Part shown: in pieces, positions 49,799-64,000 of the stretch
Layout of the letters: each line of letters starts with the position of its first letter
How positions within the stretch are numbered: the first letter of the stretch is position 1
Source: Bacillota bacterium
Lineage (GTDB): Bacteria > Bacillota > Sulfobacillia > JAJYWN01
Assembly: GCA_021791495.1 (NCBI GenBank)
Contig: JAJYWN010000081.1
Location: 1-64,000 of the forward strand
Length of the DNA stretch: 64,000 nucleotides
Direction: 5' to 3'
The notes under the pieces: generated by a model
What the model was told of the DNA's origin: nothing
Seen by the model: the letters and a program-made list of their open reading frames with translations, nothing else
The model's database searches: none
Position numbers and translations under genes: made by a program

Positions 49799-51352
49799 AT
49801 GAAGCGCTGGAAAGTAGCGATCTCAGCTATTACGATTCTTGTCATAGTGCTTACATTGGCCCTGACCGGGTGCTCCAAGGCACCTCAGGTCTCACGGGAA
49901 TTGAAGGTCCGGTTGCCTGAGTTCGGGACCGGCTACGACCCCGCCCAGCTGGGTATCCTCATCGACTTCCCCGTGGCCAACAACATCTTCAACGCCTTGC
50001 TGAAGTTCAAGGCCGGGACGACCGAACTCGTGCCGGACCTGGCCACCGCCATGCCCACGGTTTCCGACGACCACCTAACCTACACCTTCAAGCTCCGCCA
50101 GGGGGTCAAGTGGCAGAAGGGTTACGGCGAACTGACCTCCGACGACGTCAAGTTCACCTTCGAGCGGATCAAGGACCCGGCCACCAAGGCCCGTAACGCC
50201 AGCCAGTACGCGGTCATCAAGTCCATCGACACGCCGGACAAGTATACCGTGGTCTTCCATCTGACCAAGCCCGACCCCACCTTCCTCACGAAGGTAGCCA
50301 ACCTGCGCCAGGGCTTCATCGTCTCCAAGGCCGCCGTCCAGAAGCTGGGTGCGGACTACAACCGCAACCCCGTCGGCACCGGCCCCTTCCAAATGGACCA
50401 TTGGACCGATAAGACCGAAGTCGTCCTGACCGCGAATAAGGATTACTTCGAAGGCGCTCCATGGCTCCAGAAGATCACCTACCTGCCCATCGCCGACGAC
50501 TCCGTGGCCGCCATGTCTCTGCAGAAGGGCGAGACCGACGTCTTCATTTACGTCGCCTCCCCCGACACGCTGACCAAGCTAAAGAGCGACCCCAACGTCA
50601 AGATCAGCGTCCTGCCCAGCCCGGGCGGCGACCTTCTAGCGTTCAACGTCAAGCAGAAGCCCTTCAACGACATCAAAGTTCGCCAAGCCATCGCCTACGC
50701 CATCAATATCGACGAGTTCCTCTCCAAGGTCATCGGACCCCTGGGCGTTAAGGGCTATGGGCCCCTGGGCGAAGGTATGATGGGCTTCACCAAGGATGTC
50801 AAACAGTATCCCTATGACCCCGAAAAGGCCAAGCAGCTCTTAAAGGACGCCGGATACGCTAACGGGCTCTCTTTCGAAATCACCCTACCGTCCGCCGACG
50901 CCTTCACCATTCCCTACACCGCCATCCAGGGGTACCTTAAGGCCGTCGGCATCGACATGAAGATGAACCTGGTCGACTCCGGTGCTTGGGTGGCGGCCAT
51001 GGGTTCCGGGAAGTTGCTGGCCAGCGACTTGGGCTATGGTGCCCGGCCCGACCCCGAGGTCCTGCTGCGGCAGTTCTATCACTCCAGCGCGTTCCCGCCC
51101 GGATCGAACTTCATGTACTATGACGGCGCCGATGCCCTGATCGACCAGGGCGCCAACGAGTTCGACCAGTCCAAACGGGCTGACATCTACAAGAAAGTCC
51201 AGCAGAAAGTAATGGAAGATCTGCCGGTCATCCCGCTCTACTTCGCGGCGGAGACCGACGCCTACCGGAGCGACATTCAAGGCTTCCAGGCAGGTATCTT
51301 CTTCGACTACAACTTCTACAACGTCAAGCGCGTTCCGCCCACCAAGAAGTAA
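49799..51352 (+). CDS. Dipeptide/oligopeptide ABC transporter substrate-binding lipoprotein
   Basis: The start is ATG 49799 with AGGGAGGG upstream; an 18-codon upstream extension to 49745 is not needed. The 517-residue protein has a signal peptide with lipobox LTGCS and a family-5 solute-binding domain (FPVANNIFNALLKF, YTFKLRQGVKWQKGYGELTS, NPVGTGPFQM, VRQAIAYAINIDEF). It captures peptides or similar amides outside the membrane for the permeases that follow. A short GC stem (CCTCGCC/GGCGAGG, 49761-49779) lies just before the ribosome site. Its 3' neighbour is a pair of strong hairpins, which may raise its mRNA level over the permeases. Confidence 0.93.
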   Translation: MKRWKVAISAITILVIVLTLALTGCSKAPQVSRELKVRLPEFGTGYDPAQLGILIDFPVANNIFNALLKFKAGTTELVPDLATAMPTVSDDHLTYTFKLRQGVKWQKGYGELTSDDVKFTFERIKDPATKARNASQYAVIKSIDTPDKYTVVFHLTKPDPTFLTKVANLRQGFIVSKAAVQKLGADYNRNPVGTGPFQMDHWTDKTEVVLTANKDYFEGAPWLQKITYLPIADDSVAAMSLQKGETDVFIYVASPDTLTKLKSDPNVKISVLPSPGGDLLAFNVKQKPFNDIKVRQAIAYAINIDEFLSKVIGPLGVKGYGPLGEGMMGFTKDVKQYPYDPEKAKQLLKDAGYANGLSFEITLPSADAFTIPYTAIQGYLKAVGIDMKMNLVDSGAWVAAMGSGKLLASDLGYGARPDPEVLLRQFYHSSAFPPGSNFMYYDGADALIDQGANEFDQSKRADIYKKVQQKVMEDLPVIPLYFAAETDAYRSDIQGFQAGIFFDYNFYNVKRVPPTKK

Positions 51353-51392
51353 AACCGCGGGACCAGCAGAAAACACCGTAGTGCACGAAGTC

Positions 51393-51461
51393 GGTCTGTC
51401 GGGGGCGGCCCGGAGTCGCCCCTGACAGACCCCGATGCGATTTACGCATTCGGGGCGTTTT
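51393..51461 (+). terminator. Two hairpins between binding protein and permease genes
   Basis: GGTCTGTC at 51393-51400 pairs with GACAGACC at 51424-51431, with GGGGCG/CGCCCC inside. A second stem, CCCCGATGCG at 51430-51439 with CGCATTCGGGG at 51445-51455, is followed by CGTTTTC. The second is a weak terminator. This arrangement is common behind binding-protein genes, allowing fewer transcripts to continue into the permeases. Confidence 0.6.
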
Positions 51462-51493
51462 CACCGTGAACTCCGCCCAGAAGGGGTCTACTG

Positions 51494-52435
51494 ATGTTCA
51501 GGTATGCGGTCAGAAAACTGCTCTTGGCCATACCGACCATTCTCGGTATCCTGACGCTGGTCTTCATCCTCCTGAGGGTGGTGCCGGGCGACCCCGTCCG
51601 CCTCATGATGGGCGATGTGGCCATGCCGGCCGATGTCGCCGCTCTCAGGCACCAATTCGGCCTGGACCGGCCCCTTTGGGTGCAATACGTGGACTACCTC
51701 ACCCACGCCGTCCGCGGCGACTTCGGCCTGGCGCTGAAATCCGGGTTACCGGTCATCGGCGAGATACTAAGGGTCTTCCCGCACACAGTGTTGCTGGCGG
51801 TAGTCGGGCTATTGATCACCGTGGCCTTGGGCTTGCCAGTGGGAGTCCTCTCCGCCGTGCGGGCCGGGTCGTTCTGGGATTACGGGTCGATGGCCGTCTC
51901 GCTGTTGGGCTTGTCGTTGCCCACCTTCTGGCTGGCCATCCTGATGATCCTGCTGTTCTCGGTGAAACTGTCCTGGCTGCCGATCACCGGAGCCGGGAAC
52001 TTCTCTCAACCGGGTGATCTCTTGGTCCGTCTGATCTTACCGGCGTTGACACTCGGCATCTCCACGGCTGCCTTTGCCGCTCGGATGACCCGCTCGTGCA
52101 TGCTCGAAGTCTTAGCTCAGGACTACGTACGCACTGCCCGGGCTAAGGGAGTGCCCCAGCGGTCGGTCATCTACCGCCACGCCTTGAAGAACGCGGCCAT
52201 CCCCATCGTCACCACCATGGGCATTCTGCTCAGCCGGCTATTGGGCGGGGCAGTGGTTATCGAGATGGTTTTCTCCCGGCCCGGCATCGGACAGCTCATT
52301 GTCTCCGGCATCTTGGCCCGCGACTACCCGCTGGTCCAGGGGACGGTCTCTTTCTTCGCCTTCACTCTGATCGCGGTGAACCTGGGGGTGGACTTGGTCT
52401 ATGGGTATCTCGACCCGACCATCAGGTTCGACTGA
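51494..52435 (+). CDS. Peptide ABC transporter permease, DppB type
   Basis: The 313-residue protein begins MFRYAVRKLLLAIPTILGIL and has LRVVPGDPVRLMMG, typical of DppB/OppB. It has about six membrane helices and the EAA loop (DYVRTARAKGVPQRSVIYRH) that docks the ATPase. It starts at ATG 51494 with an AGAAGGGG-like site upstream. It overlaps the next permease by 35 bases. It forms the channel for the peptide delivered by the preceding lipoprotein. No ATPase gene (DppD/DppF) is near, so the energy subunits must be encoded elsewhere. Confidence 0.93.
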   Translation: MFRYAVRKLLLAIPTILGILTLVFILLRVVPGDPVRLMMGDVAMPADVAALRHQFGLDRPLWVQYVDYLTHAVRGDFGLALKSGLPVIGEILRVFPHTVLLAVVGLLITVALGLPVGVLSAVRAGSFWDYGSMAVSLLGLSLPTFWLAILMILLFSVKLSWLPITGAGNFSQPGDLLVRLILPALTLGISTAAFAARMTRSCMLEVLAQDYVRTARAKGVPQRSVIYRHALKNAAIPIVTTMGILLSRLLGGAVVIEMVFSRPGIGQLIVSGILARDYPLVQGTVSFFAFTLIAVNLGVDLVYGYLDPTIRFD

Positions 52436-53363
52436 ACCGGCGCGGGCCCAGACCCATGGGCCGGCCCAGCCGCAGGCTCAGCCGCGAGTCCAGGCGCAGG
52501 CCCCGGTACGGCGCCCCCGGTGGAAGCCGCCCCGGACCCTCCGGGCGCTTCTGCGGAACCCAGGGGCTCTCCTGGCATTGTTGGTCATGGTCTTCCTGGC
52601 CTTCGTGCTGGTTTCGCCCGGCAGCCTGACCTCCTTTGACCCGACCCTGATGTCCCTGCCCGAAAAATACGCGCCCCCCAGCCGAATACACATCTTTGGC
52701 GCGGACCAGTTGGGCCGCGACGTCTTTGCCCGGGTAGTCTACGGCACCCGCATTTCCCTGGGGATCGGTTTTGGTTCGACCATCCTGTCGCTCATCGCCG
52801 GCTCCTTCATCGGGATAGTCGCCGGCTACTACGGTGGTTGGTTCGACAAGACCCTGATGACCCTGATGGACATGCTGATGGCTTTCCCGTCCATCCTGCT
52901 GGCCCTGGTCATGGTGGCCTCCCTGGGGACCGGCGCCATCAACACCATCATCGCCCTGGCCGTGGCCATGACACCGAATTTCGCTCGCCAGGCGCGGGCC
53001 TCGGTCCTTTCCGTCAGGGAGAAGCAGTATATCCAGGCGGCCCACTCCGTCGGGCTGGCGTCCTGGTACATTATGTTGAGGCACATCCTGCCGAACATCC
53101 TGGCGCCCCTCCTTATCACCGCCAGCCTGTCCATCGGCGTGGCCATCCTCAGTGAGGCCAGCCTGAGTTACCTCGGGTTGGGGGTGCCGCCGCCAGCTCC
53201 GTCCTGGGGGACTATTGTGAACGAGGGCAAGAACGCCATCGGCCTGGCTCCATGGGTCGCCACCGCCGGAGGCGGGGCGGTGACCGTTGCCGTCCTGGCG
53301 GTCAACCTCCTCGGTGACTTCCTGCGCGACGCCTATGACCCGCGGCTCAGGGGCCTAAGATAA
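52401..53363 (+). CDS. Peptide ABC transporter permease, DppC type
   Basis: The 320-residue protein has a Pro/Gln/Ala-rich N-terminal tail (about 40 residues, including QPQAQPRVQAQAP) and then the DppC pattern of about six helices with HIFGADQLGRDVFARVVYGT and the EAA loop (SVREKQYIQAAHSVGLASWY). It starts inside the DppB gene (35-base overlap) and is translationally coupled to it. The start could lie later, since the tail has no family match. It pairs with DppB in the membrane. A creatininase-family gene follows after 36 bases. Confidence 0.92.
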   Translation: MGISTRPSGSTEPARAQTHGPAQPQAQPRVQAQAPVRRPRWKPPRTLRALLRNPGALLALLVMVFLAFVLVSPGSLTSFDPTLMSLPEKYAPPSRIHIFGADQLGRDVFARVVYGTRISLGIGFGSTILSLIAGSFIGIVAGYYGGWFDKTLMTLMDMLMAFPSILLALVMVASLGTGAINTIIALAVAMTPNFARQARASVLSVREKQYIQAAHSVGLASWYIMLRHILPNILAPLLITASLSIGVAILSEASLSYLGLGVPPPAPSWGTIVNEGKNAIGLAPWVATAGGGAVTVAVLAVNLLGDFLRDAYDPRLRGLR

Positions 53364-53399
53364 GACCAATCTTCACAGACTTCCCGGAGGTGTAACGAA

Positions 53400-54227
53400 A
53401 TGAGCGGAAAAGAGCGCCGGTACTGGCTGCACGAGATGACCCGGCCGGCTTTCGAGGAGTACCTGAGAAGCGAACCGAAACCCGTGGCTTTGATCCCGCT
53501 GGGTTCGATCGAGCAGCACGGTCCGCACCTCCCCCTGGGCACCGACATTCTCGGCGCCCTGCACGTCACCGAATTGACGGCGAAGAAGGGTAACGCCGTC
53601 GGGGTGTTCTGCACTCTGCCGGCCTACTCGCCACACCACATGGGCTTCAAGGGGACTATTACTCTTCGCCCCGAGACCCTCATCGCCTACCTGACCGACG
53701 TCATCGGTAGCCTGGCCCATCACGGAATCAAGCGGATCATGATCCTGAACTCGCACGGCGGAAACGAGGAGATCGTCGCGACCGTCGCCAAGACCGTGGG
53801 CCGGGAATTCGGTGTCAAGATAGCCAAACCCCGCTCCCGCACTTTCACCATCACCCCGGAGTTGGTCGCCACCCTCGACATTCACTCAGGCGAAATGGAA
53901 ACCGGCGACATGCTGGCGGTTGCCCCCCATCTCGTCGAGATGGAGCGGGTCAAGGACCACCGGCCTACCGAGAACTTGCCGCCCGACGTGATGGCCCTCC
54001 TCGATGCCAAGCGGCCCGATGCCTTCCTGGCTCAGCAAGTGGCCATGCTGCACATCGGCGATACCCATACGCACACCTCATCCGGGGTGTACGGTTTCAA
54101 GCGGCCTCAGGACGGCAGCGCCGAGGCGGGGCACCAGTTCAACGAAGACCTGTCCGACGAATACGCTGAGTTCATTCGCATCTGGCGGACCGTGGACATT
54201 CCCGGCGAAGGAGGCGCCGCCAGATGA
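53400..54227 (+). CDS. Creatininase family amidohydrolase
   Basis: The 275-residue protein carries the creatininase metal site: GSIEQHGPHLPLGTD (Glu, His, Asp), NSHGGNEE (His) and DIHSGEMETGDML (Glu). Family members hydrolyse cyclic amides such as creatinine or formyl-amine precursors. The next gene is an M24 peptidase that overlaps by 4 bases, and an amidohydrolase follows, so a ring-opening step for a cyclic amide or imide is plausible. The start is ATG 53400 with GGAGGTG upstream. The specific substrate cannot be read from sequence. Confidence 0.9.
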   Translation: MSGKERRYWLHEMTRPAFEEYLRSEPKPVALIPLGSIEQHGPHLPLGTDILGALHVTELTAKKGNAVGVFCTLPAYSPHHMGFKGTITLRPETLIAYLTDVIGSLAHHGIKRIMILNSHGGNEEIVATVAKTVGREFGVKIAKPRSRTFTITPELVATLDIHSGEMETGDMLAVAPHLVEMERVKDHRPTENLPPDVMALLDAKRPDAFLAQQVAMLHIGDTHTHTSSGVYGFKRPQDGSAEAGHQFNEDLSDEYAEFIRIWRTVDIPGEGGAAR

Positions 54228-55435
54228 GTCTGGTGAAAGCGAGCGTCCCGTGGGATTGGGGGACGCGCCAGAAACACATGGTGCTTCATTTTCCAGTTTC
54301 CGAATACCGGGACCGGATCGCCAAGGTTCGGCGGGAGATGGAGGAGCGCGGTCTCACGCACCTGATCGCGTATTCCAACTTCGCCGACCCGGCCGACGTG
54401 CGGTGGTTGTCTGGTTTCAATACCAGCCACGGGGACTCGTTCGTGGTCATCGCTCCCGACCGCGAACCGGCCCTGGTGACCAACTGGATCATGCACGACG
54501 AACCGATGCACTCGGAGATATGGACCTCCTGGATGGAGGACACGCGGGCCTGCCCGCCCTTCAGCAATAGCCTCATCGATGAGGTGGCGGCGGCGGCCAA
54601 GGCCGATGGCGACCCACGGCCCGGCCGGATCGGGCTCTCGGGGCAACGGGTGATGCCGGCCCGCATCCTCACCCCTCTGTTGCAGGCTTGCGGCCTGGAG
54701 AGCTTCGCCAATGGCGATGCGGTCACCGCGGCGGCCCGGCGCATCAAATCCCCCCTCGAAATCGAAATGGTGCGCCGGGCCAGCCGGGCCGCAGGGGCGG
54801 GCATTGGGGCAGCCTTGGCCGCCCTCGAACCGGGCGTGACGGAGCAGGCGGCGACGTCCATCGCCCACGGCACGATGTTCGCGGCGGGCGCTGAGCAGCT
54901 GGCCTTCGAGTCCTCTTTCTCCAGCGGAGGCGCCAGGGCCGGGATGAAGCACTGCACACCGTCGTGGAAGCCTTTCGAGGCCGGTGACGCGGTCTTCATC
55001 GACATGGGAGCCATCGTCCACGGCTACTACAGTGACGTCAGCCGGTGCGCGGCTGTGGGCGAGCCGTCGCCCGAGTTGAGACGCCTTCTGGCGGCCGGGG
55101 AGGTCCTTTTCGAGGAGCTGGTCAAGCTGGCCAAGCCCGGCCGGTCCTTCGCCGACCTGCATGAGGACGCCATTCGGATCGCCCGGGACCTGGGTTACGA
55201 GAAGTACTACATGCCCGGTGGGTTTGGCCACGGGGTGGGGTGCATGCTGTTCGAACGGCCCAGCCTCCGGTACCGGGAGACCACCGATATCTTGGAGGTC
55301 GGGATGACCTTCGCCTTCGAGCCCATGTTCGTTCAGTACGGCGTGGGGACCGCCGTAGTGGAAGACACCATGCTGGTGACGGAGAAGGGCATCGAGCCGT
55401 TGTCGGGGCTACCGACTAAGGTCTATGCCGGCTAA
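54224..55435 (+). CDS. M24 family metallopeptidase (Xaa-Pro peptidase-like)
   Basis: The 403-residue protein has an N-terminal creatinase/prolidase domain and a catalytic domain with the five metal ligands conserved: Asp in FIDMGAI, Asp in YYSDVSR, His in GFGHGVG, Glu in FAFEPMF and Glu in VVEDTML. This argues for a metallopeptidase over a metal-free creatinase. It overlaps the creatininase gene by 4 bases (ATGA) and the amidohydrolase by 11 bases. Its N-terminus is intact, which shows that the paralogue at 44712 lost its own to a frameshift. Confidence 0.92.
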   Translation: MSLVKASVPWDWGTRQKHMVLHFPVSEYRDRIAKVRREMEERGLTHLIAYSNFADPADVRWLSGFNTSHGDSFVVIAPDREPALVTNWIMHDEPMHSEIWTSWMEDTRACPPFSNSLIDEVAAAAKADGDPRPGRIGLSGQRVMPARILTPLLQACGLESFANGDAVTAAARRIKSPLEIEMVRRASRAAGAGIGAALAALEPGVTEQAATSIAHGTMFAAGAEQLAFESSFSSGGARAGMKHCTPSWKPFEAGDAVFIDMGAIVHGYYSDVSRCAAVGEPSPELRRLLAAGEVLFEELVKLAKPGRSFADLHEDAIRIARDLGYEKYYMPGGFGHGVGCMLFERPSLRYRETTDILEVGMTFAFEPMFVQYGVGTAVVEDTMLVTEKGIEPLSGLPTKVYAG

Positions 55436-56618
55436 GTCCGAAGGCCAACCCGGCAAGACTATCCTGTGCGGCCGTCTGATCGACGGCACGGGCAGGGCGC
55501 CAGTGGACGGAGCGGTGGTCCGGCTCGATGCCGCGGGCCGGATCACCGCCGTCCTGACCGGAGCCCGAGAGGTGGCGGCAGCCTCCGCCTCCACCGGCGA
55601 GGTCATTGACTGGAGCAGCTACACGGTGATTCCGGGTCTGGTGGATGCCCACAATCACCTGGGCATGAACAGCGGCGGAGACATGCTGGCCATGGCCACA
55701 GAACCGGACGTGCGCAAGGTCATCCGCGCCGCGGCTAACGCCCGAGTGGACCTGGAATCCGGCATCACCACCTTGCGGGTATGCGGCGAGAAAGCCCAAG
55801 TGGACCTGGAGTGGCGCGCCGCCGCGGCGGACGGACTGTTCTTCGCCCCCCGATTGGTGGTTTCCGGAGAGTTCATCTGCCCGACCTCGGGTCATGCCGC
55901 TTTCTACGGCGCGAACTGCGATGGCCCGGAAGAGGTCCGTCGCGGGGTCCGGCGCCAGATCGCCGCCGGGGCCGACTTCATCAAAGTGATGGTCAGCGGG
56001 GGAGCCCAGGAAGCTCCTCCGGGGCCGATGGACCCCGAATACACGCCCGACGAACTGCGGGCCGCCATCGATGAGGCCCATCGCGGGCACCGGCGGGTGG
56101 CCGGACACTGTTTCGGCGGGCCCGGCGCCGACGTGGCCATCGAGGCCGGCATAGACAGCATCGAACACGGGACACACCTAACCGGGGAGCAGTTGGCCCG
56201 GATGGCGGCCAAAGGCATCGGCCTGGTCGTCACGGCCGGGGTCTTCATGGTCGAAGCCGAGCTTCCGTCGCCTACCCCGGCGGAGAGGGCCTTGACGGTA
56301 GGGTTCAGAGACCGCTACCCCGAAGTCATCGCGCAGGCGAAACGCGCAGGCGTCCCTTTGGCCGTGGGCGGCGACTTTCTTCATGGCCGGCTGGACCTCG
56401 AGGTGGAGATGTTGGTCAAGGGAGGCCTCACCCCCATGGAAGCTCTCCTGGCGGCGACCTCCAGCGGCGCGGCTGCGCTCGGTCTGTCGAAAGAGATCGG
56501 CTCGATCGTGCCGGGCAAACAAGGTGACTTAGTGGCCTTGGGTGGCGACCCTCTGGCTTCGTGGGCGGCGCTGCGGGACGTCCGTGGGGTCATCCAACGT
56601 GGCGTACCGAGGGCTTGA
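55425..56618 (+). CDS. Metal-dependent amidohydrolase (imidazolonepropionase/prolidase-like)
   Basis: The 397-residue enzyme has the amidohydrolase barrel: VIPGLVDAHNHLGM (two metal-binding His), FIKVMVSGGAQ (the strand where a lysine bridges metals), AGHCFGGPG and IEHGTHL (His ligands), and LAVGGDFLHG (catalytic Asp). It resembles the Xaa-Pro dipeptidase and organophosphate-hydrolase-like branch. It overlaps the M24 gene by 11 bases. It would hydrolyse a small peptide, hydantoin-like or lactam compound; the branch is broad and the substrate is unknown. It is followed closely by a PucR regulator gene. Confidence 0.9.
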   Translation: MPAKSEGQPGKTILCGRLIDGTGRAPVDGAVVRLDAAGRITAVLTGAREVAAASASTGEVIDWSSYTVIPGLVDAHNHLGMNSGGDMLAMATEPDVRKVIRAAANARVDLESGITTLRVCGEKAQVDLEWRAAAADGLFFAPRLVVSGEFICPTSGHAAFYGANCDGPEEVRRGVRRQIAAGADFIKVMVSGGAQEAPPGPMDPEYTPDELRAAIDEAHRGHRRVAGHCFGGPGADVAIEAGIDSIEHGTHLTGEQLARMAAKGIGLVVTAGVFMVEAELPSPTPAERALTVGFRDRYPEVIAQAKRAGVPLAVGGDFLHGRLDLEVEMLVKGGLTPMEALLAATSSGAAALGLSKEIGSIVPGKQGDLVALGGDPLASWAALRDVRGVIQRGVPRA

Positions 56619-56649
56619 CTTACTGCCCAGGGCCCGAGGAGATGAGTGT

Positions 56650-58341
56650 TTGCGTTCGGTGAAGGTGGCGGACCTATTGACTCATCCTTCCCTTGCCGGG
56701 ACCACTGTCGTGGCAGGGAGAACTGGGTTGCGCCAGACCGTGCGCTCCATCAGCCTTGTCCGCACCCCATCGCCGGCGCCCTTTCCCGCTCACGCCATCG
56801 TGGTGGCCGACGGTGCGCTTTTCGTCGACCAGCAGTCGTACCTCGCTCCCTTGATCGCGTTATGCCGCCGCTCTCAGGAAGCGGCGTTGGCCATCGCGCC
56901 CACGCACGGCCTGGAGCGACTGCCCGAGGAGGCGCGGTTGGCGGCCGACCAAGGAGGACTGCCGGTCCTGCAGATTCCGGCAGGCATGCGGGTCGAGGAC
57001 TGGGCCATCGCCGCGGCCAACGCCTTGGTCGAAATCCAGGACGGTGATTTCCACCAGTCCCAGCGCCTGAACCGGCGGCTCCTGGACCTGGTGCTGGGCG
57101 GGTACGGTCCCGACCGGGTCGCGGCGACTTTGGCCGGCGTGGTCCACAACCCGATCATCCTGGTGGACTCGTCGGGGGCTGTGGTGGCGTTGGGGCTGCC
57201 GTCCGAACTCCAGTCCATCAAGCCCGCCGCTTTCGAACCGAAGGGACTACCATATGAGCAAGTCGAAGCGGCCCTGGTCCGGGGCTACGCCGACCGTGGG
57301 CGGCGCCGGGGATGGAGCGGTCTCCAGACCCAGGCCGCGAGCGCCAGACCGGACCATCCTCCCCAATCCTTCAAGCGCACCATAACAGCGGCCGGCCGCC
57401 CTGTGGGAGCCCTACGGGTCCTGGAGCTGACCCGGGCGGTGGAGGAAGCGGAGATCGGTGCACTGGAGAACGCGTCCATCGCCTTCGCCCTGGAAGCGGT
57501 GAAACAGATGGCCGTGCAGGAAGTCGACCGCCGTTCGCGGACGCAGTTCATCGAGGACCTGGTGTCCGGCCGCCTCCAGTCCGAGGAGGACTTGCGCCTC
57601 AGGATGACCCTGCTGGGGTGGCGGGTCAAGTTGCCGGCCACGGTCCTGGCGGTAGACATCGAGCGCTTCGGTGAATGGCAGCAGCACTCGGAATCCGAGG
57701 CCAAGGTCCAGGAGAAGAAGGCCCAGATGTACGACGCCGTCGATCTCTACATGAAAAGGCAGGACCTCCCGCCGGCCGTCGGCCTGCGCAGCGATAGCCT
57801 GACCGTGGTGATCTTCGGAGCCGTCTCCGTAGAGGAGGCGGACAGGCGCGCCCGGGAGATAAAGTCCGTCTGCGATGGGGCGCTGAAGGATCTGACTGTG
57901 TCAGTGGGCGTCGGGAACCCCCGGGCGGCTCTGGCTGATCTGAAAGATAGCCATGCCGAAGCCTGGCAGTCGCTGGAGCTGGGGCGACGCCTCTGGGGAG
58001 CCAACCGGGTGACCCATGTGATCGACCTGGGAGCCTACCGCGTACTCGCTCAGATGAGCCGGGAGCAGCTGCGGTCGCTGGTCTTGACCACGTTGGTTCC
58101 CCTGGGCCTGGCGGTGGAAGGTGACGATGAGTTGCGCCGGACCGTCTCCGCCTACCTGCGGAGTGACGGCTCCATCAATGAAGCGGCGGCGGCGCTGGGT
58201 GTCCATCCGAACACGGTGAAGTACCGGCTGTCCAAGGTCTGGAGCGGCAACCGCCCGACCTTCGCCGAGAAGGTGAACCTGTTCCTAGCTCTCTTGGCGG
58301 ACTCGTTCATGCGCTCGCCAAACGGGGACGACCAGGAGTGA
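56650..58341 (+). CDS. PucR-type transcriptional regulator
   Basis: The start is TTG 56650 with GAGGAG 8 bases upstream, giving 563 residues; the frame is open to 56542 but overlaps the amidohydrolase gene. Domain order is an N-terminal PucR sensory domain (1-125, VADLLTHPSLAGTTVV), a middle CdaR GGDEF-like domain (about 300-430) and a C-terminal PucR helix-turn-helix (SINEAAAALGVHPNTVKYRL). Such proteins usually activate purine, amino-acid or peptide catabolic genes. It likely controls this cluster. The next gene overlaps its stop or starts 26 bases later. Confidence 0.9.
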   Translation: MRSVKVADLLTHPSLAGTTVVAGRTGLRQTVRSISLVRTPSPAPFPAHAIVVADGALFVDQQSYLAPLIALCRRSQEAALAIAPTHGLERLPEEARLAADQGGLPVLQIPAGMRVEDWAIAAANALVEIQDGDFHQSQRLNRRLLDLVLGGYGPDRVAATLAGVVHNPIILVDSSGAVVALGLPSELQSIKPAAFEPKGLPYEQVEAALVRGYADRGRRRGWSGLQTQAASARPDHPPQSFKRTITAAGRPVGALRVLELTRAVEEAEIGALENASIAFALEAVKQMAVQEVDRRSRTQFIEDLVSGRLQSEEDLRLRMTLLGWRVKLPATVLAVDIERFGEWQQHSESEAKVQEKKAQMYDAVDLYMKRQDLPPAVGLRSDSLTVVIFGAVSVEEADRRAREIKSVCDGALKDLTVSVGVGNPRAALADLKDSHAEAWQSLELGRRLWGANRVTHVIDLGAYRVLAQMSREQLRSLVLTTLVPLGLAVEGDDELRRTVSAYLRSDGSINEAAAALGVHPNTVKYRLSKVWSGNRPTFAEKVNLFLALLADSFMRSPNGDDQE

Positions 58342-58367
58342 AAAGTCAGATGACCGGGGAAGGACAA

Positions 58368-59774
58368 ATGAACATCGACACTGCGAAGCTGAATGCTCTT
58401 ATCGACTCTAAGCGGCAGGCGGTCCTGGAGTTTCTCCGCGAGGCCGTCTCCTGCTCGACTCCGTGCAATCCCGAGGAGTCGGGCTTTCACGGGCCCAACT
58501 TCCAGCACCTTGTGGCTTCCAAACTCACGGACATGGGCTTCGTTCCAAGAGTTTGGATCCCCGAAGTGAAAGCCATCCGCAGCCATTATCCGACCATGGG
58601 CCATACCTTCACTTACGAAAGCCGGCCCAATGTGGTGGCGGTTTGGCGCGGGACCGCTTCGAGTGGAGGTGGCGGTAACGGTGGCAGCGGGGGTGGCAAC
58701 GGTGCCGGCAGCGGCGTTGGCGGCAACGCGGATCGCGGCGCCGGTCGCGGGCGTTCGCTGGTCCTGAACACGCACGCCGATGTTTACGGCCCAGGCAACG
58801 TCGATAGCTGGGCCTATCCGCCTTTCGCCGGACGAGTCGAAGGGGGACGTGTCCACGGGCGGGGAACGGTGGATGCGAAAGGTTCCGTCACCGCCTATTT
58901 GTTCGCCCTGCAGTGCCTCCGGGAAGCCGGTTTCGAACCGGCCGGCGACATCACCTTCCAGTCCGTGGCCGATGAAGAGGGCGGCGGCAACGGGACCATG
59001 GCCTGCATACTTGAAGGTTACACCGGGGACGCGGTGCTTATGGGTGAACCGACCGGCCTGGCCATCAGTCCGGGGAGCCGTGGAGCGACTCACCTGCGGT
59101 TACGAGTGGTCGGACAGGAAGCCCACGCCGGACTGGCCTACGAGGGAGTCAACGCCATCGCCAAGACCACCCTCTACATGCAGGCCCTCTGGCAGCTAGA
59201 GGGGGAACTGGACGCCAAGTTCAAACACCCCTTGTGGGACCCGTTCCCCAAAGCCCACACCATGAATGTGGAATGGATCCACTCCGGCGGTTTCGGCGGC
59301 GTCGTCCCCGGTTTCAGTGAGGCTCTCATGGCCGTCGGATGCATCGGCGGAGAGAGCATCGCCGACGTCAGACGCTGGGTAACCGAGGCTTTCGCCAAGG
59401 TAACGGAGGCCGACCCCTGGCTGCGGGAACACCCTCCAGAACTGATCTGGGGTCCGCTGGCCTTCGAACCTTCGGCCACCGACCCGCGGCACCCCTTCGT
59501 CCAGACGGCCGTCAGAGCCGCCCGCGAGGTACTCGGCCGTGATGTCCCCGTCCACGCCCTTTCGGCCGGTTCCGACATGCGTTTCTTCTGCAATCAGGCC
59601 GGCCTGCCGGGACTCCACTTCGGCCCGGGCGACCTGCGGCTGGCGCACAGCACCCGCGAGTTCGTGGAGCTTGACGAGGTCATGGCGGCCATCAAGGTGC
59701 TGATACGCCTGATCCCCGATTGGACCATGGGGCGCCATGAGGAAGACGCCGCCGGGAGCGGGAGGGCCAGCTAG
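58368..59774 (+). CDS. M20 family peptidase (ArgE/DapE-like)
   Basis: I choose ATG 58368 because GGGGAAGGA lies just upstream; GTG 58338 overlaps the PucR stop. The 468-residue protein keeps His/Asp (LNTHADVYGP), bridging Asp (GTVDAKGS), Glu pair (ADEEGGG), GEPTGL and FGPGDLRLAHS (His). It is a clear paralogue of the gene at 48319. A Gly/Asn-rich insertion near 95-125 (SSGGGGNGGSGGGNGAGSG and more) breaks the early part of the catalytic domain. It should hydrolyse an N-acylated or small peptide substrate. It converges with the minus-strand operon that starts at the right edge. Confidence 0.9.
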   Translation: MNIDTAKLNALIDSKRQAVLEFLREAVSCSTPCNPEESGFHGPNFQHLVASKLTDMGFVPRVWIPEVKAIRSHYPTMGHTFTYESRPNVVAVWRGTASSGGGGNGGSGGGNGAGSGVGGNADRGAGRGRSLVLNTHADVYGPGNVDSWAYPPFAGRVEGGRVHGRGTVDAKGSVTAYLFALQCLREAGFEPAGDITFQSVADEEGGGNGTMACILEGYTGDAVLMGEPTGLAISPGSRGATHLRLRVVGQEAHAGLAYEGVNAIAKTTLYMQALWQLEGELDAKFKHPLWDPFPKAHTMNVEWIHSGGFGGVVPGFSEALMAVGCIGGESIADVRRWVTEAFAKVTEADPWLREHPPELIWGPLAFEPSATDPRHPFVQTAVRAAREVLGRDVPVHALSAGSDMRFFCNQAGLPGLHFGPGDLRLAHSTREFVELDEVMAAIKVLIRLIPDWTMGRHEEDAAGSGRAS

Positions 59775-59811: not shown

Positions 59812-60546
59812 TTACTCTCCAGGGCCTGACCCCGGACGACCCAGACCGGCGTTTACCTTGGAATGTGGTCCAACCGCGAAATCAGGGTCACCCCATCCCC
59901 GGACCTGGTCGAGGGCCGGCACGTGGTCGCCGTCTTCCATCCGGCAGATGACCCCCACCGAGAAGACCGTGTCCACCACGGGGGCGACAGCTTGCAAGGC
60001 TTCCAAAACGCCCCTCAGCTTCTCCGGCGGAATGGTGAACTCCACCACGGCCGAAACTACCCGCTCGCTCAGTACGGCCGGATCCAACTGCCCGCTGGCG
60101 CGGTCGCGCATAACGTAAGTGACCGGGTTCTTTCCCTCAAACTCGACTCCCAGCGGCGCCACAGCCCGCGTAATCACCTCGACGTCTTTCAAAGTGGCGC
60201 CAACGTTGGGCCTGCCCACATCCACGCACACCCCCAACATGCTGGACCGGAACCGGCCGGTGACATCGTTAGTCTTCATCTCCTCGGTGCCGCGGCCGGT
60301 GACGCCCGTTTCCTTGAACTCGGTCAAGGGGTTCGAGAAGATGCTCCTAATAGAGCGGGGCCAGGCCAGTTCCCGAGCCGGCTCGAAAGCGTCCTCCGTG
60401 CAGACTCCCACCCGGTAGCAGACCTCGCATTCAGCACATAGATCCTGGTCTACGCGGGCTTTCCTGGCCGTAATCTTGATGGCCCGCATGGGGCAGTGCT
60501 TCAGGCACAGGCCACAACCCGTGCACCGTTCGGCCATAACGTTCAT
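59812..60546 (-). CDS. Ferredoxin-like protein with a C-terminal unknown domain
   Basis: The start is ATG 60546, overlapping the upstream stop by 4 bases; the longer frame to 60801 is a shadow. The 244-residue protein begins with a 2[4Fe-4S]-type pattern: CTGCGLCLKHC and CAECEVCYRVGVC. The second cluster has extra spacing. The rest (about 70-244, SSMLGVCVDVGRPNVGATLK, VVDTVFSVGVICRM) is unlike ferredoxins and may be an alpha/beta ligand-binding domain. It is last in the TctA/TctB operon. It may move electrons for a reaction by the TIM-barrel or Cys-rich neighbours; I do not recognise the full architecture. Confidence 0.75.
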   Translation of the reverse strand: MNVMAERCTGCGLCLKHCPMRAIKITARKARVDQDLCAECEVCYRVGVCTEDAFEPARELAWPRSIRSIFSNPLTEFKETGVTGRGTEEMKTNDVTGRFRSSMLGVCVDVGRPNVGATLKDVEVITRAVAPLGVEFEGKNPVTYVMRDRASGQLDPAVLSERVVSAVVEFTIPPEKLRGVLEALQAVAPVVDTVFSVGVICRMEDGDHVPALDQVRGWGDPDFAVGPHSKVNAGLGRPGSGPGE

Positions 60547-61256
60547 GACCGGCCACCCCCGTCGTCTGGCGCAATTTCCGTTACGCCGGCCGGGGGCGGA
60601 CCGTCCGCGGTCGCCACCCCCGCCGCTCGGCGCCGCCGGCAGATTTCGGTCAACAGCGCCTCCGCCCGGCTGGGGTTGAACATGGCGCAAGTGCAGGGCC
60701 GGGCCAGTTCCACCGCCCCGTCCCGCGCCGACATCCGCCCACCCCGCACCTGCCGCAGCACATATCCCACATGGTCCGGGCAGACCATGGCGTGCCCGCA
60801 CATGCTGGTGATATCCAGCACTTCGGGCGCCGGCAGCTTCTCCACCTTTCCCATGTAGCCCAGTGACATATTAACAGTATGCGGCGTCAGACCGGCCCGC
60901 TGGAGCAGGTCGAAGACGACCTCACGCTCCCCGGTGACCACCACGGACAAACCGAGATTGACCGCCTTTAGCTCCCTTAGCGCCGCCTCGGCCTGCTCCC
61001 GGTCGTCGTAGACTGCCGCCATGTAGGACTTTCCGTTGGCGTGGGATAGGATCTCTTCCACCGTCCGTCCGGTGAGGATACCGCCGATGTTATCGTCGCC
61101 CGCGTTGACCGGCCGGTGCTTCAACATGATCCGGAAGGTCTCACGGAACTTATCTTCCGAACCCCGATTGTTGTATCCCTGGGCGGCCATGGACAGGAGG
61201 ATGAACTCCTCCCCCTGGCCGGCCAGGTTCCTGGTCCGGTGAAGAGTGTGGGTCAT
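60543..61256 (-). CDS. Unknown protein with a late Cys cluster
   Basis: The start is ATG 61256, 2 bases after the upstream stop; the longer frame to 61457 lies inside the neighbour. The 237-residue protein has motifs such as EEFILLSMAAQGYNNRGSED and VNMSLGYMGKVEKLPAPEV. It also has two Cys groups, SMCGHAMVCPDH and ARPCTCAMFNP, which could bind an Fe-S cluster or metal. No membrane segment is visible. I do not recognise it. Its coupling to a ferredoxin-like protein and a TIM-barrel-like protein suggests a multi-subunit enzyme. Confidence 0.65.
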   Translation of the reverse strand: MTHTLHRTRNLAGQGEEFILLSMAAQGYNNRGSEDKFRETFRIMLKHRPVNAGDDNIGGILTGRTVEEILSHANGKSYMAAVYDDREQAEAALRELKAVNLGLSVVVTGEREVVFDLLQRAGLTPHTVNMSLGYMGKVEKLPAPEVLDITSMCGHAMVCPDHVGYVLRQVRGGRMSARDGAVELARPCTCAMFNPSRAEALLTEICRRRRAAGVATADGPPPAGVTEIAPDDGGGRS

Positions 61257-61258
61257 GG

Positions 61259-62194
61259 CTAGGCTACCGGCACGGCCAGGTCTGGGCTTCCCGCCGGCGA
61301 ACACCGGACCGACGCCGGGCCGTACGCGTCGATGATCTCCCGCACGATGGTGGCGTACTTGACCTTCTCGCGGCACATGTGCCGGTGAAAGTCCTCCGGG
61401 TTCCAAGGGGCATAAACCGCTTCCTCCGACGGCCCCGGCTCGAACTTGAAGTAGCAAGGGGAGGCGATCCGCGCGATTTCGCCCGCCTCATAGAACCGGT
61501 TGAACCCGCCCATGGCCTCGACCAGGAACAGATAGACATCCATGGGGATACGCACCGCCGCTCGGATGGAGGCCAGCATGGGCAGGGACAAGTCGGCCAA
61601 AGGGTTGAAACTGTTGGCCCCCAAGGACTCCACCAATCTCGCGCCCGCCGGGGAACCGTGACCCGCGAAAACCGAAACCTTGAAGACCGTTTCCTTGGGG
61701 ATGAAGCCACTCTCGCGTAGCTGGTTATATACCGTCATCATGCCCTCGTCGGGAGCTAGGAAACCACGGAACCCCGCGTCCAGGCACCGGTCCAGGTCCC
61801 GCATGAGGCTGACCATATTGTCCACGCCCCGGACCCGCATGCCGGAAACCAGCCCTTCCTTCGTGGAGATCTGCCTCCCGGAATCCCACGCCCGCCGCGG
61901 CCCAAGGGTGACGACGATCTCCACCTTAGCGTCGTGGGCCAGTTGGGCGAAGCGCCGCAGTTCCGCTTTGGTGAGATAGGTGGCCCCACCCACGGTGGCG
62001 ATGACCCGGTGGATCGCGGTCCCTCGCTTTTGCGACTCCTCCATCATGGCCTCGAAGGCCGAGGCCCTCTCCACCCCGGCGATCTCGATGCGGTAATTCC
62101 CCCCGTCAGGGAAAGTCTGATCGGAGCTGGGTAGATCGTAGGAGTCTCTGGGGCCCATGCCCAGGGATTCGAGGCCCTTTTCCACGCTGAACAC
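61259..62194 (-). CDS. Unknown TIM-barrel-like protein (U32-like?)
   Basis: I choose GTG 62194 because GGGGAGG lies 9 bases upstream; TTG 62212 is in frame but overlaps that site. The 311-residue protein reads as alternating helices and strands (VEIVVTLGPRRAW, LDAGFRGFLAPDEGMMTVY, TVFKVSVFAGHGSPAGARLV, IPMDVYLFLVEAMGGFNRFY), fitting an (alpha/beta)8 barrel. Some strings recall U32-type peptidases, but the Cys motif of that family is not evident. It lies 42 bases after tctA and 2 bases before the Cys-rich gene, so its substrate may be what the transporter imports. Confidence 0.6.
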   Translation of the reverse strand: MFSVEKGLESLGMGPRDSYDLPSSDQTFPDGGNYRIEIAGVERASAFEAMMEESQKRGTAIHRVIATVGGATYLTKAELRRFAQLAHDAKVEIVVTLGPRRAWDSGRQISTKEGLVSGMRVRGVDNMVSLMRDLDRCLDAGFRGFLAPDEGMMTVYNQLRESGFIPKETVFKVSVFAGHGSPAGARLVESLGANSFNPLADLSLPMLASIRAAVRIPMDVYLFLVEAMGGFNRFYEAGEIARIASPCYFKFEPGPSEEAVYAPWNPEDFHRHMCREKVKYATIVREIIDAYGPASVRCSPAGSPDLAVPVA

Positions 62195-62236
62195 TGTTTT
62201 TTGCCTCCCCAATGTGCAGTTACTTACGAAATGCAG

Positions 62237-63748
62237 TCACTCTTGAGAAGCGTGATTCTTGCGCCCTTTCCCCAACAGGGTAGGGGCAAACAGCGAAACC
62301 AGGCTGAGTATCAGGAGAAAGGCGGTAATGGGCTCGGTGATGACACCCCAAACGTTATCCGAGATAATCAAGGCCCGGCGGAACGAACTCTCCATGATGG
62401 GCCCCAGGACCATTCCAAGGATGATGGGCGAGGTCGGGAAACCGCCCTTGTCCATGAGGAAACTCAGCAGGGCAAAGCCAATGGCCAGATAGAGCCCAAA
62501 CAGGTCTCCCATGGAGAGAGCCCCCACGGCACAGAAAGCCACGATGCCAGCGGCCACTACGGGGTAGGGCAATCCCAGAAGACGTATGAAAGGCCGGACC
62601 ATGATCAGGGCCAGCCCCAGAAAGGCGAGGGCGGAAACGATGACCGACGCCATGCTGGCGTAGGCCATCTGGGCTTGCTCGACCATGAGCAGAGGGCCGG
62701 GTTTGAGGCCGTGCAGCATAAAGGCGCCCAACATCACGGCGGTGGTGGCGCTCCCCGGAATGCCAAGGGCCAGGAGGGGTACCATGGCGCCGCCCACGGC
62801 GGCATTGTTCGACGTCTCCGAAGCCACGATTCCGCGCGGGTCCCCAGTCCCAAACTTCTCCGGATCCTTGGAGAGACGTGCCGTCTGGCTATAACCGACG
62901 ATGGCGGCCGTGGTCGCTCCGACCCCCGGTAACACCCCGATCCAGGTCCCGATCAGGGCCGTCCCCAGAGAGATCCATTTGAAGCTCTTTACCTCCGCCC
63001 AACTCGGCAGACGGATGCGGAGGCGCTTCATCTCTTCTTTCGATACGGCCGCCTCGGCCACCGTCCCGGTAATGCCCTGCTTGACGGTCTGGTTAAGGAC
63101 CTCGGCCAAGGCGAATAGACCGATCACCACCGGGATAAACCCCACCCCATTGGCCAATTCCAATCGCCCGAAGGTGAACCTCTCCATCCCGGTGATCTGA
63201 TCCATCCCCACCGTGGCGATGAGTAGCCCGAAGAGGCCGCTGATGAGGGACTTGATGGGGGACTTACCCCCCAGTCCGGCCATAGCGGTCATACCCAGAA
63301 AACCCAAGGCAAAATACTCGGACGGCCCGAACTGCAGAGCCATGGCCGCCAGGGCCGGCGCCAGAAAGAGGAGGCACAGACCGCCGAAGATGTTTCCGAA
63401 AACTGAGTAGAAGAGGCCCAACCCCAAAGCCCGGTCGGCCTGGCCCTTCTGAGCCATAGGATAGCCGTCCAGGGTGGTCATCACCGCCTCCGGCGCGCCT
63501 GGAATCCGGAAAAGGATGGCCGGGATCTGCCCCCCGTAGACAGCGCCTCCGTACATGCCAACGAGAAAAACCAGGGCGACGGTGGGAGACATGGCATAGG
63601 TCACGGGGATAAACAGCGCGGCCCCGACCGTAGAGTCGAGGCCGGGAAAGGCGCCGAGAATCAGGCCCACCGCCGTCCCGGCAACGATCCACAGCAAGTT
63701 GACGGGGGCAAGGGTCACCGCAAAACCTTGGAAGATGTGAGTGAGCAT
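62237..63748 (-). CDS. tctA: Tripartite tricarboxylate transporter large permease TctA
   Basis: The 503-residue membrane protein has about 11-12 helices and the TctA signatures GAFPGLDSTVGAALFIPVTY, GGAVYGGQIPAILFRIPGAP and VLPGVGATTAAIVGYSQTARL, with LLALGIPGSATTAVMLGAF. TctA is the transport subunit of the TTT family, working with a small TctB and a periplasmic-type binding protein TctC. A TctB gene lies upstream at the window edge; no TctC is visible here. The substrate (citrate or another carboxylate in known cases) is unknown. The start is ATG 63748 with AAAGAGGTAAT upstream. Confidence 0.93.
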   Translation of the reverse strand: MLTHIFQGFAVTLAPVNLLWIVAGTAVGLILGAFPGLDSTVGAALFIPVTYAMSPTVALVFLVGMYGGAVYGGQIPAILFRIPGAPEAVMTTLDGYPMAQKGQADRALGLGLFYSVFGNIFGGLCLLFLAPALAAMALQFGPSEYFALGFLGMTAMAGLGGKSPIKSLISGLFGLLIATVGMDQITGMERFTFGRLELANGVGFIPVVIGLFALAEVLNQTVKQGITGTVAEAAVSKEEMKRLRIRLPSWAEVKSFKWISLGTALIGTWIGVLPGVGATTAAIVGYSQTARLSKDPEKFGTGDPRGIVASETSNNAAVGGAMVPLLALGIPGSATTAVMLGAFMLHGLKPGPLLMVEQAQMAYASMASVIVSALAFLGLALIMVRPFIRLLGLPYPVVAAGIVAFCAVGALSMGDLFGLYLAIGFALLSFLMDKGGFPTSPIILGMVLGPIMESSFRRALIISDNVWGVITEPITAFLLILSLVSLFAPTLLGKGRKNHASQE

Positions 63749-63787
63749 GGCATTACCTCTTTCAAGCCAGCCTCGTCGGCGGTCCGC

Positions 63788-64000
63788 TTAGTAAAAAAGT
63801 CGGCTGAAGGCAAGGAACGGCCCCACACCGCGGGGCAAGGGCATGTTCAGGAGTCGGATGAACAGGATGTAAATGACGGTGGTGAGAAGGAGAGGTACTC
63901 CGAACATCACTCTCCCGGAGCGGGCCGACAGGACCCAGAGGACGGCCACCTGTACAAGGAAAGTGGCCAGCAGGAAGCCCAGGACGGACGCCAGGACCGC
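63788..64000 (-). CDS. tctB: Tripartite tricarboxylate transporter small subunit TctB (partial)
   Basis: The C-terminal 70 codons are in the window, ending GPFLAFSRLFY at the TAA (63788-63790). Two hydrophobic segments (LGFLLATFLVQVAVLWVL and LLLTTVIYILFIRLL) match the last helices of TctB-type proteins. It precedes tctA by 39 bases on the same strand. The N-terminal part and any TctC gene lie beyond the right edge. Confidence 0.8.
   Translation of the reverse strand, partial: AVLASVLGFLLATFLVQVAVLWVLSARSGRVMFGVPLLLTTVIYILFIRLLNMPLPRGVGPFLAFSRLFY

Follow-up and report, generated by a model that had tools for sequence, protein, structure and literature searches.

The window analyzed here is a 64,000-nucleotide stretch of a Bacillota bacterium contig (JAJYWN010000081.1, positions 1 to 64,000), and five minus-strand genes are found at its end (Table 1). 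Two of them encode the TctA and TctB subunits of a tripartite tricarboxylate transporter (TTT), and the others encode a TIM-barrel-type protein, a protein with conserved cysteine motifs (CYS) and its partner, a ferredoxin-domain protein (FDC). The original prediction had described these genes as a tightly packed run, and the layout was confirmed from the sequence. TctB and TctA are separated by 39 bases, TctA and the TIM-barrel gene by 42, and the TIM-barrel gene and CYS by 2, while CYS and FDC overlap by 4 bases. The transporter was assigned to the TTT class from matches to PF01970 (TctA) and PF03401, with TctB between them, all in one operon with TctC.

Beyond the window, the minus-strand run continues on the same contig (C56) with TctC, an arginase-family hydrolase, an IclR gene and a second CYS-FDC pair (L010). 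The order of transcription is FDC2, CYS2, IclR, arginase-family hydrolase, TctC, TctB, TctA, TIM-barrel protein, CYS and FDC. CYS2 and FDC2 also overlap by 4 bases, and they share 39% and 47% identity with the CYS and FDC of the window, respectively. A separate plus-strand cluster at 50003-59774 of the window converges on this run. It encodes OppBC-like permeases, a creatininase family protein, an M24 creatinase/prolidase, an amidohydrolase, a PucR-type regulator and an M20 peptidase, and looks like a cluster for amide or creatinine-type catabolism; four of its genes have Pfam support.

Table 1. Coordinates of the genes and motifs at the locus (window positions)
Feature	Position	Strand	Basis or remark
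FDC	59812..60546	-	Pfam Fer4 4Fe-4S ferredoxin domain plus uncharacterized C-terminal domain
FDC, two 4Fe-4S motifs (residues 8-49)	60400..60525	-	CxxCxxCxxxC, then CxxCxxCx5C
FDC, C-terminal domain motif GRGTEEMKTND (residues 84-94)	60265..60297	-	Alignments
CYS, partner of FDC (CGHAMVC, CTC)	60543..61256	-	No known family
CYS, CGH motif (C153-G-H155)	60792..60800	-	133/133 pairs
CYS, CxC...N motif (C188, C190, N194)	60675..60695	-	100% of 133 pairs
TIM-barrel-type protein	61259..62194	-	Distant U32 relative; GTG start preceded by a GGGGAGG site
TctA, TTT membrane subunit	62237..63748	-	PF01970, E 5.2e-139
TctB, 3' part in the window	63788..64000	-	Whole gene reaches contig position 64321

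CYS and FDC form an obligate pair

A domain search found the C-terminal domain of FDC in 25 of 398 Bacillota genomes. A profile search with CYS over the same genomes gave 27 positives that included all 25 FDC genomes, and the two genomes with a CYS match and without FDC were 84-85% complete and held only partial CYS matches (Fisher p about 1e-37 for co-occurrence over genomes). Among 80 FDC loci of named genomes, 78 also contain CYS, and the two genes are each other's neighbors in nearly all neighborhoods. Up to eight copies of the pair occur per genome, eight being the number in the organism of the window. The 80 named-genome loci represent Bacillota, Deltaproteobacteria, Chloroflexi, Bacteroidales, Sutterellaceae, Lokiarchaeota and Bathyarchaeota; at least 479 relatives were confirmed in a scan. 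The relatives are mostly MAGs, with genes called by a simple ORF rule; the named cultured relatives are anaerobes. Desulfosporosinus, Desulfotruncus and Mesosutterella are among the carriers that can be cultured. In a mirror-tree comparison, distances among the CYS proteins followed those among the FDC domains (r 0.72), and permuted data did not exceed 0.11. The pairing is obligate, and no description of the pair was found in a full-text literature search.

FDC begins with 55 residues that match Fer4 families, and the uncharacterized domain makes up the following 180. Each of the eight cysteines is conserved in 95-99% of 133 pairs. The G, R, G, E, K, N, R and P residues of FDC are nearly 100% conserved; in the alignment numbering of the 133 pairs, positions at about 100% are G101, R102, G103, E106, K108, G128, R129, P158, K247, G251 and G253. 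Since the 80 named-genome loci were collected with the pattern EE[MVI]KTN[DE][VI], conservation of the EE-KTN stretch is biased in that set. The GRGTEEMKTND residues were also invariant or nearly so in alignment A4, which came from a pattern-free search with the whole domain. The motifs of CYS are untouched by this bias, and in addition to those in Table 1, a THxLHR-type start is present in 128 of 133 pairs.

Neither CYS nor the C-terminal domain of FDC gave a credible match in Pfam, NCBIfam or the PDB, the only reference libraries used for these proteins, with single sequences or with profiles. Scattered matches of single CYS or FDC members in Pfam and NCBIfam (E 0.0003-0.1) were treated as noise. 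Kinship of CYS with DUF2099 (PF09872), raised by one weak Pfam match, was rejected because no CYS locus was positive in 16 genomes. The AlphaFold models were confident, with pLDDT values of 91.9 for CYS and 91.0 for FDC. By their best Foldseek matches, none of them significant, both most resemble small regulators with an alpha/beta ferredoxin fold: the N-terminal half of CYS looks PII-like, with a helical C-terminal half that bears the cysteines, and the C-terminal domain of FDC looks ACT/PII-like. The ferredoxin domain of FDC superposes on clostridial ferredoxin at 1.5 Å. Neither a flavin site nor a site for another organic cofactor was recognized.

One FDC homolog, in a Dehalococcoides sp. 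JdFR-56 MAG (L149:7414-9537), carries a Fer4_20/Pyr_redox_2 NAD(P)H-FAD domain between the ferredoxin and C-terminal domains. Other apparent FDC fusions (L047, L052, L053, L084 and a 329-aa ORF of the window) were judged to be overlong reading frames.

Neighboring genes and the function of the pair

The original prediction had tied the locus to an imported carboxylate, and the tie to the transporter was borne out well beyond the window. TctA lies within 6 kb of 29 of 51 distinct FDC loci, where the number of TctA genes and the size of the genomes predict 1.0, and the maximum over 20,000 simulations was seven loci. A TTT or TRAP gene is present in 52 of 114 pair operons; the other 62 have neither, though other transporter types occur. 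Redox enzymes are linked to the pair as well. Among the 114 operons, 23 have a HycB-type ferredoxin, 20 an FNOR, 10 an aldehyde:ferredoxin oxidoreductase (AOR) and 20 a prismane/CODH-family protein, the last being a PF03063 protein of roughly 510 aa and of the mini-CooS type that is not in the window. FNOR, the HycB-type ferredoxin and the prismane/CODH-family protein occur together in 17 of 114 loci. Dehydrogenases (Zn-ADH, HIBADH) and C-C lyases (PanB, DapA-like) are also recurrent, and the neighboring enzymes as a whole are too diverse for any one reaction to cover.

A module of HycB-type ferredoxin, short prismane/CODH-family protein, FDC, CYS and FNOR was seen at L054:7727-12285 and at 16 other loci. 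The excerpts of the CODH context studies PMC8776680, PMC13056359 and PMC6344411 contain no mention of the pair.

A redox-linked role for CYS and FDC is well supported, and the pair itself is probably the catalyst. We give about an even chance to the reading that they are two subunits of an uncharacterized Fe-S oxidoreductase of anaerobes, whose substrates would be imported carboxylates or products made from them. Its basis is the observed obligate pairing, co-inheritance, motif conservation, transporter linkage, redox neighbors and single reductase fusion. For the cluster type, the direction of electron flow, the reaction and the substrate, we infer the following scheme. The two 4Fe-4S clusters of FDC would take up electrons, supplied by NAD(P)H or by a ferredoxin, and hand them on to CYS, at a putative metal site with C153, H155, C188 and C190 as ligands. 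If this site is a 4Fe-4S cluster, its three cysteines would leave one iron free for substrate, and the carboxylate imported by TctABC, or a breakdown product of it, would be reduced or dehydrated there. Alternatively, the CGH and CxC motifs could bind zinc. The many paralogs might be explained by each copy serving a different carboxylate and moving with its transporter. The wider proposal falls just short of an even chance: a new two-subunit, ferredoxin-dependent Fe-S family with two unrecognized catalytic domains, whose paralogs, spread across anaerobic bacteria and the Asgard and Bathyarchaeota lineages, would each handle one carboxylate.

Another possible explanation is that the pair is not the catalyst but delivers electrons to, or activates, a neighboring enzyme such as AOR, a CODH-like protein, the TIM-barrel protein or a 2-oxoacid oxidoreductase, and so holds it in a reduced or active state. 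This would suit the ferredoxin domain of FDC, the reductase fusion in L149 and the frequent oxidoreductase neighbors. However, no client enzyme is common to all loci, and TctA and TctC are the only tracked neighbors in 21 of 114 operons. There are invariant polar residues outside the ferredoxin part, which suggests that the pair has an active site of its own. We consider a delivery role unlikely, though it is the strongest of the alternatives.

A role as a redox-responsive regulator of carboxylate uptake, in the manner of PII-family proteins that act on transporters, is less probable again. The strong TTT linkage would agree with it, as would the nearest folds in Foldseek, which were the PII-like SbtB for CYS (E 0.04, probability up to 0.99) and ACT/PII-type domains for the C-terminal domain of FDC (best E 5e-3, TM <=0.35). 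Neither fold match is significant, however, and rmsd values were mostly 5-12 Å. More than half of the pair operons (62 of 114) have no TTT or TRAP gene, although other transporter types occur, a sensor has no obvious place for a reductase fusion, and invariance of CGH and CxC would be unusual in a pure sensor.

The TIM-barrel protein and comparison with known systems

None of the three proteins next to the transporter had been recognized as a known enzyme in the original prediction, and this held: CYS and the C-terminal domain of FDC gave no significant match in profile and structure searches, and the TIM-barrel protein was placed only as a distant relative of peptidase family U32 (PF01136). 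Five of ten members of its family match PF01136 weakly (best E 1.1e-5); the window protein itself gave no match, and two plasmid-borne relatives are annotated as 'U32 family peptidase'. The predicted barrel fold rests on this relationship. Conserved residues of the family include two Lys along with several Asp, Glu and Arg, a set that by inference fits a lyase. A likeness to fructose-bisphosphate aldolase (E 0.0016-0.004, mainly in the N-terminal third) was left as an unused lead.

The original prediction had also credited all three proteins with Fe-S features and had joined them in one oxygen-sensitive enzyme. Motifs of the Fe-S type are present in the ferredoxin and in CYS and are conserved in the 133 pairs, whereas the TIM-barrel protein has no conserved cysteine. 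A single three-subunit Fe-S enzyme would fit the order TIM-CYS-FDC, found also in L085 and L086. Against it, 32 of the 398 genomes have a full-length TIM-barrel relative, and of these seven have FDC and 25 lack the pair; most pair loci have no TIM-barrel gene. The relatives also have other contexts (PanB with glutamate dehydrogenase; fumarase with Ldh2) and are found in Thermomicrobium, Nonomuraea, Streptomyces and Enterobacter records. Independent occurrence was therefore seen for the TIM-barrel protein and not for CYS plus FDC. As a general rule, three Fe-S proteins in one enzyme were rejected since the TIM-barrel protein is separable and has no conserved cysteine.

The clade of the window pair (six loci, support 0.95) has the rarer gene order, CYS-FDC, wherever CYS is visible; the L131 contig ends before CYS. 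In five of the six loci (window, L085, L086, L131 and L201) the TIM-barrel gene is in the operon, and we therefore regard its product as a dedicated partner in this subtype. For the remaining locus, L097, no TIM-barrel gene was found anywhere in the genome, which is a further point against a three-subunit enzyme, a reading that we hold to be slightly less probable than the regulator. The TIM-barrel protein is separable from the pair generally, yet a dedicated partner in the subtype of the window, where it would be added as a U32-related, lyase-like protein for the next or previous step. The finding is more general than the window shows; the earlier reading was right in spirit for CYS-FDC and wrong on the set of three genes. 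Chance adjacency of unrelated genes can be set aside as extremely improbable: short gaps are the sole link inside the window, but the arrangement recurs in independent genomes and is enriched over random placement.

Two branches of TIM-barrel relatives were seen in conserved surroundings. One lies with a glutamate-type dehydrogenase, and mostly also with a PanB-like hydroxymethyltransferase, in a conserved cluster (L168, L170, L177, L178, L182-L185). The other lies beside class I fumarase/tartrate dehydratase genes (L186, L188, L190, L191), with an Ldh2-type dehydrogenase in three of the four. A further relative, on an Enterobacter chuandaensis plasmid (L014:7935-8873), is in a possible biosynthetic cluster with genes for a phosphotransferase, an aminotransferase, an iron-containing redox enzyme and an MFS protein.

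The arginase-family gene of the run, whose closest PDB structures are agmatinase and guanidinobutyrase, hints that the substrate of the window copy may be a guanidino-carboxylate such as 4-guanidinobutanoate. An arginase-family relative is also present in L086, along with a class-III aminotransferase and AOR, and L201 has an indolepyruvate-type 2-oxoacid oxidoreductase and two genes identified by eye as ADP-forming acyl-CoA synthetase subunits. These neighbors would be consistent with a route in which a guanidino-carboxylate is turned into an amino acid, an aldehyde and a 2-oxo acid. No supporting evidence was found for a match to 6-hydroxynicotinate reductase.

If CYS-FDC is an enzyme, a large share of anaerobic carboxylate breakdown has gone unseen, with neither a family model nor an assigned chemistry. 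Assignment of the reaction would make transporter-linked clusters readable in syntrophs, sulfate reducers, Chloroflexi and Asgard archaea.

IspH, NadA and 2-hydroxyacyl-CoA dehydratase are Fe-S dehydratases or reductases with an open cluster iron. They offer a parallel in working only, through three conserved cysteines and a low-potential electron donor; no similarity of sequence or fold to CYS-FDC was found, and no ATPase activator was seen beside the pair. U32 oxidases (UbiU/UbiV, RlhA, TrhP) are distant kin of the TIM-barrel protein, but their cluster motif, CX6CX15CX3C (PMC11574389), is absent from all 32 aligned TIM-barrel members. The family of the window protein also differs from U32 in its size of about 310 aa and its gene neighbors. 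The domain inserted in the L149 homolog is of the GltD/NfnB NAD(P)H-FAD reductase type and has no counterpart in the window pair. The N-terminal part of FDC is like 2[4Fe-4S] ferredoxins of the RnfB, HgcB and VhuB type in its Fer4 match and two four-cysteine motifs, whereas the spacing of its second motif and the extra 180-residue domain set it apart from them.
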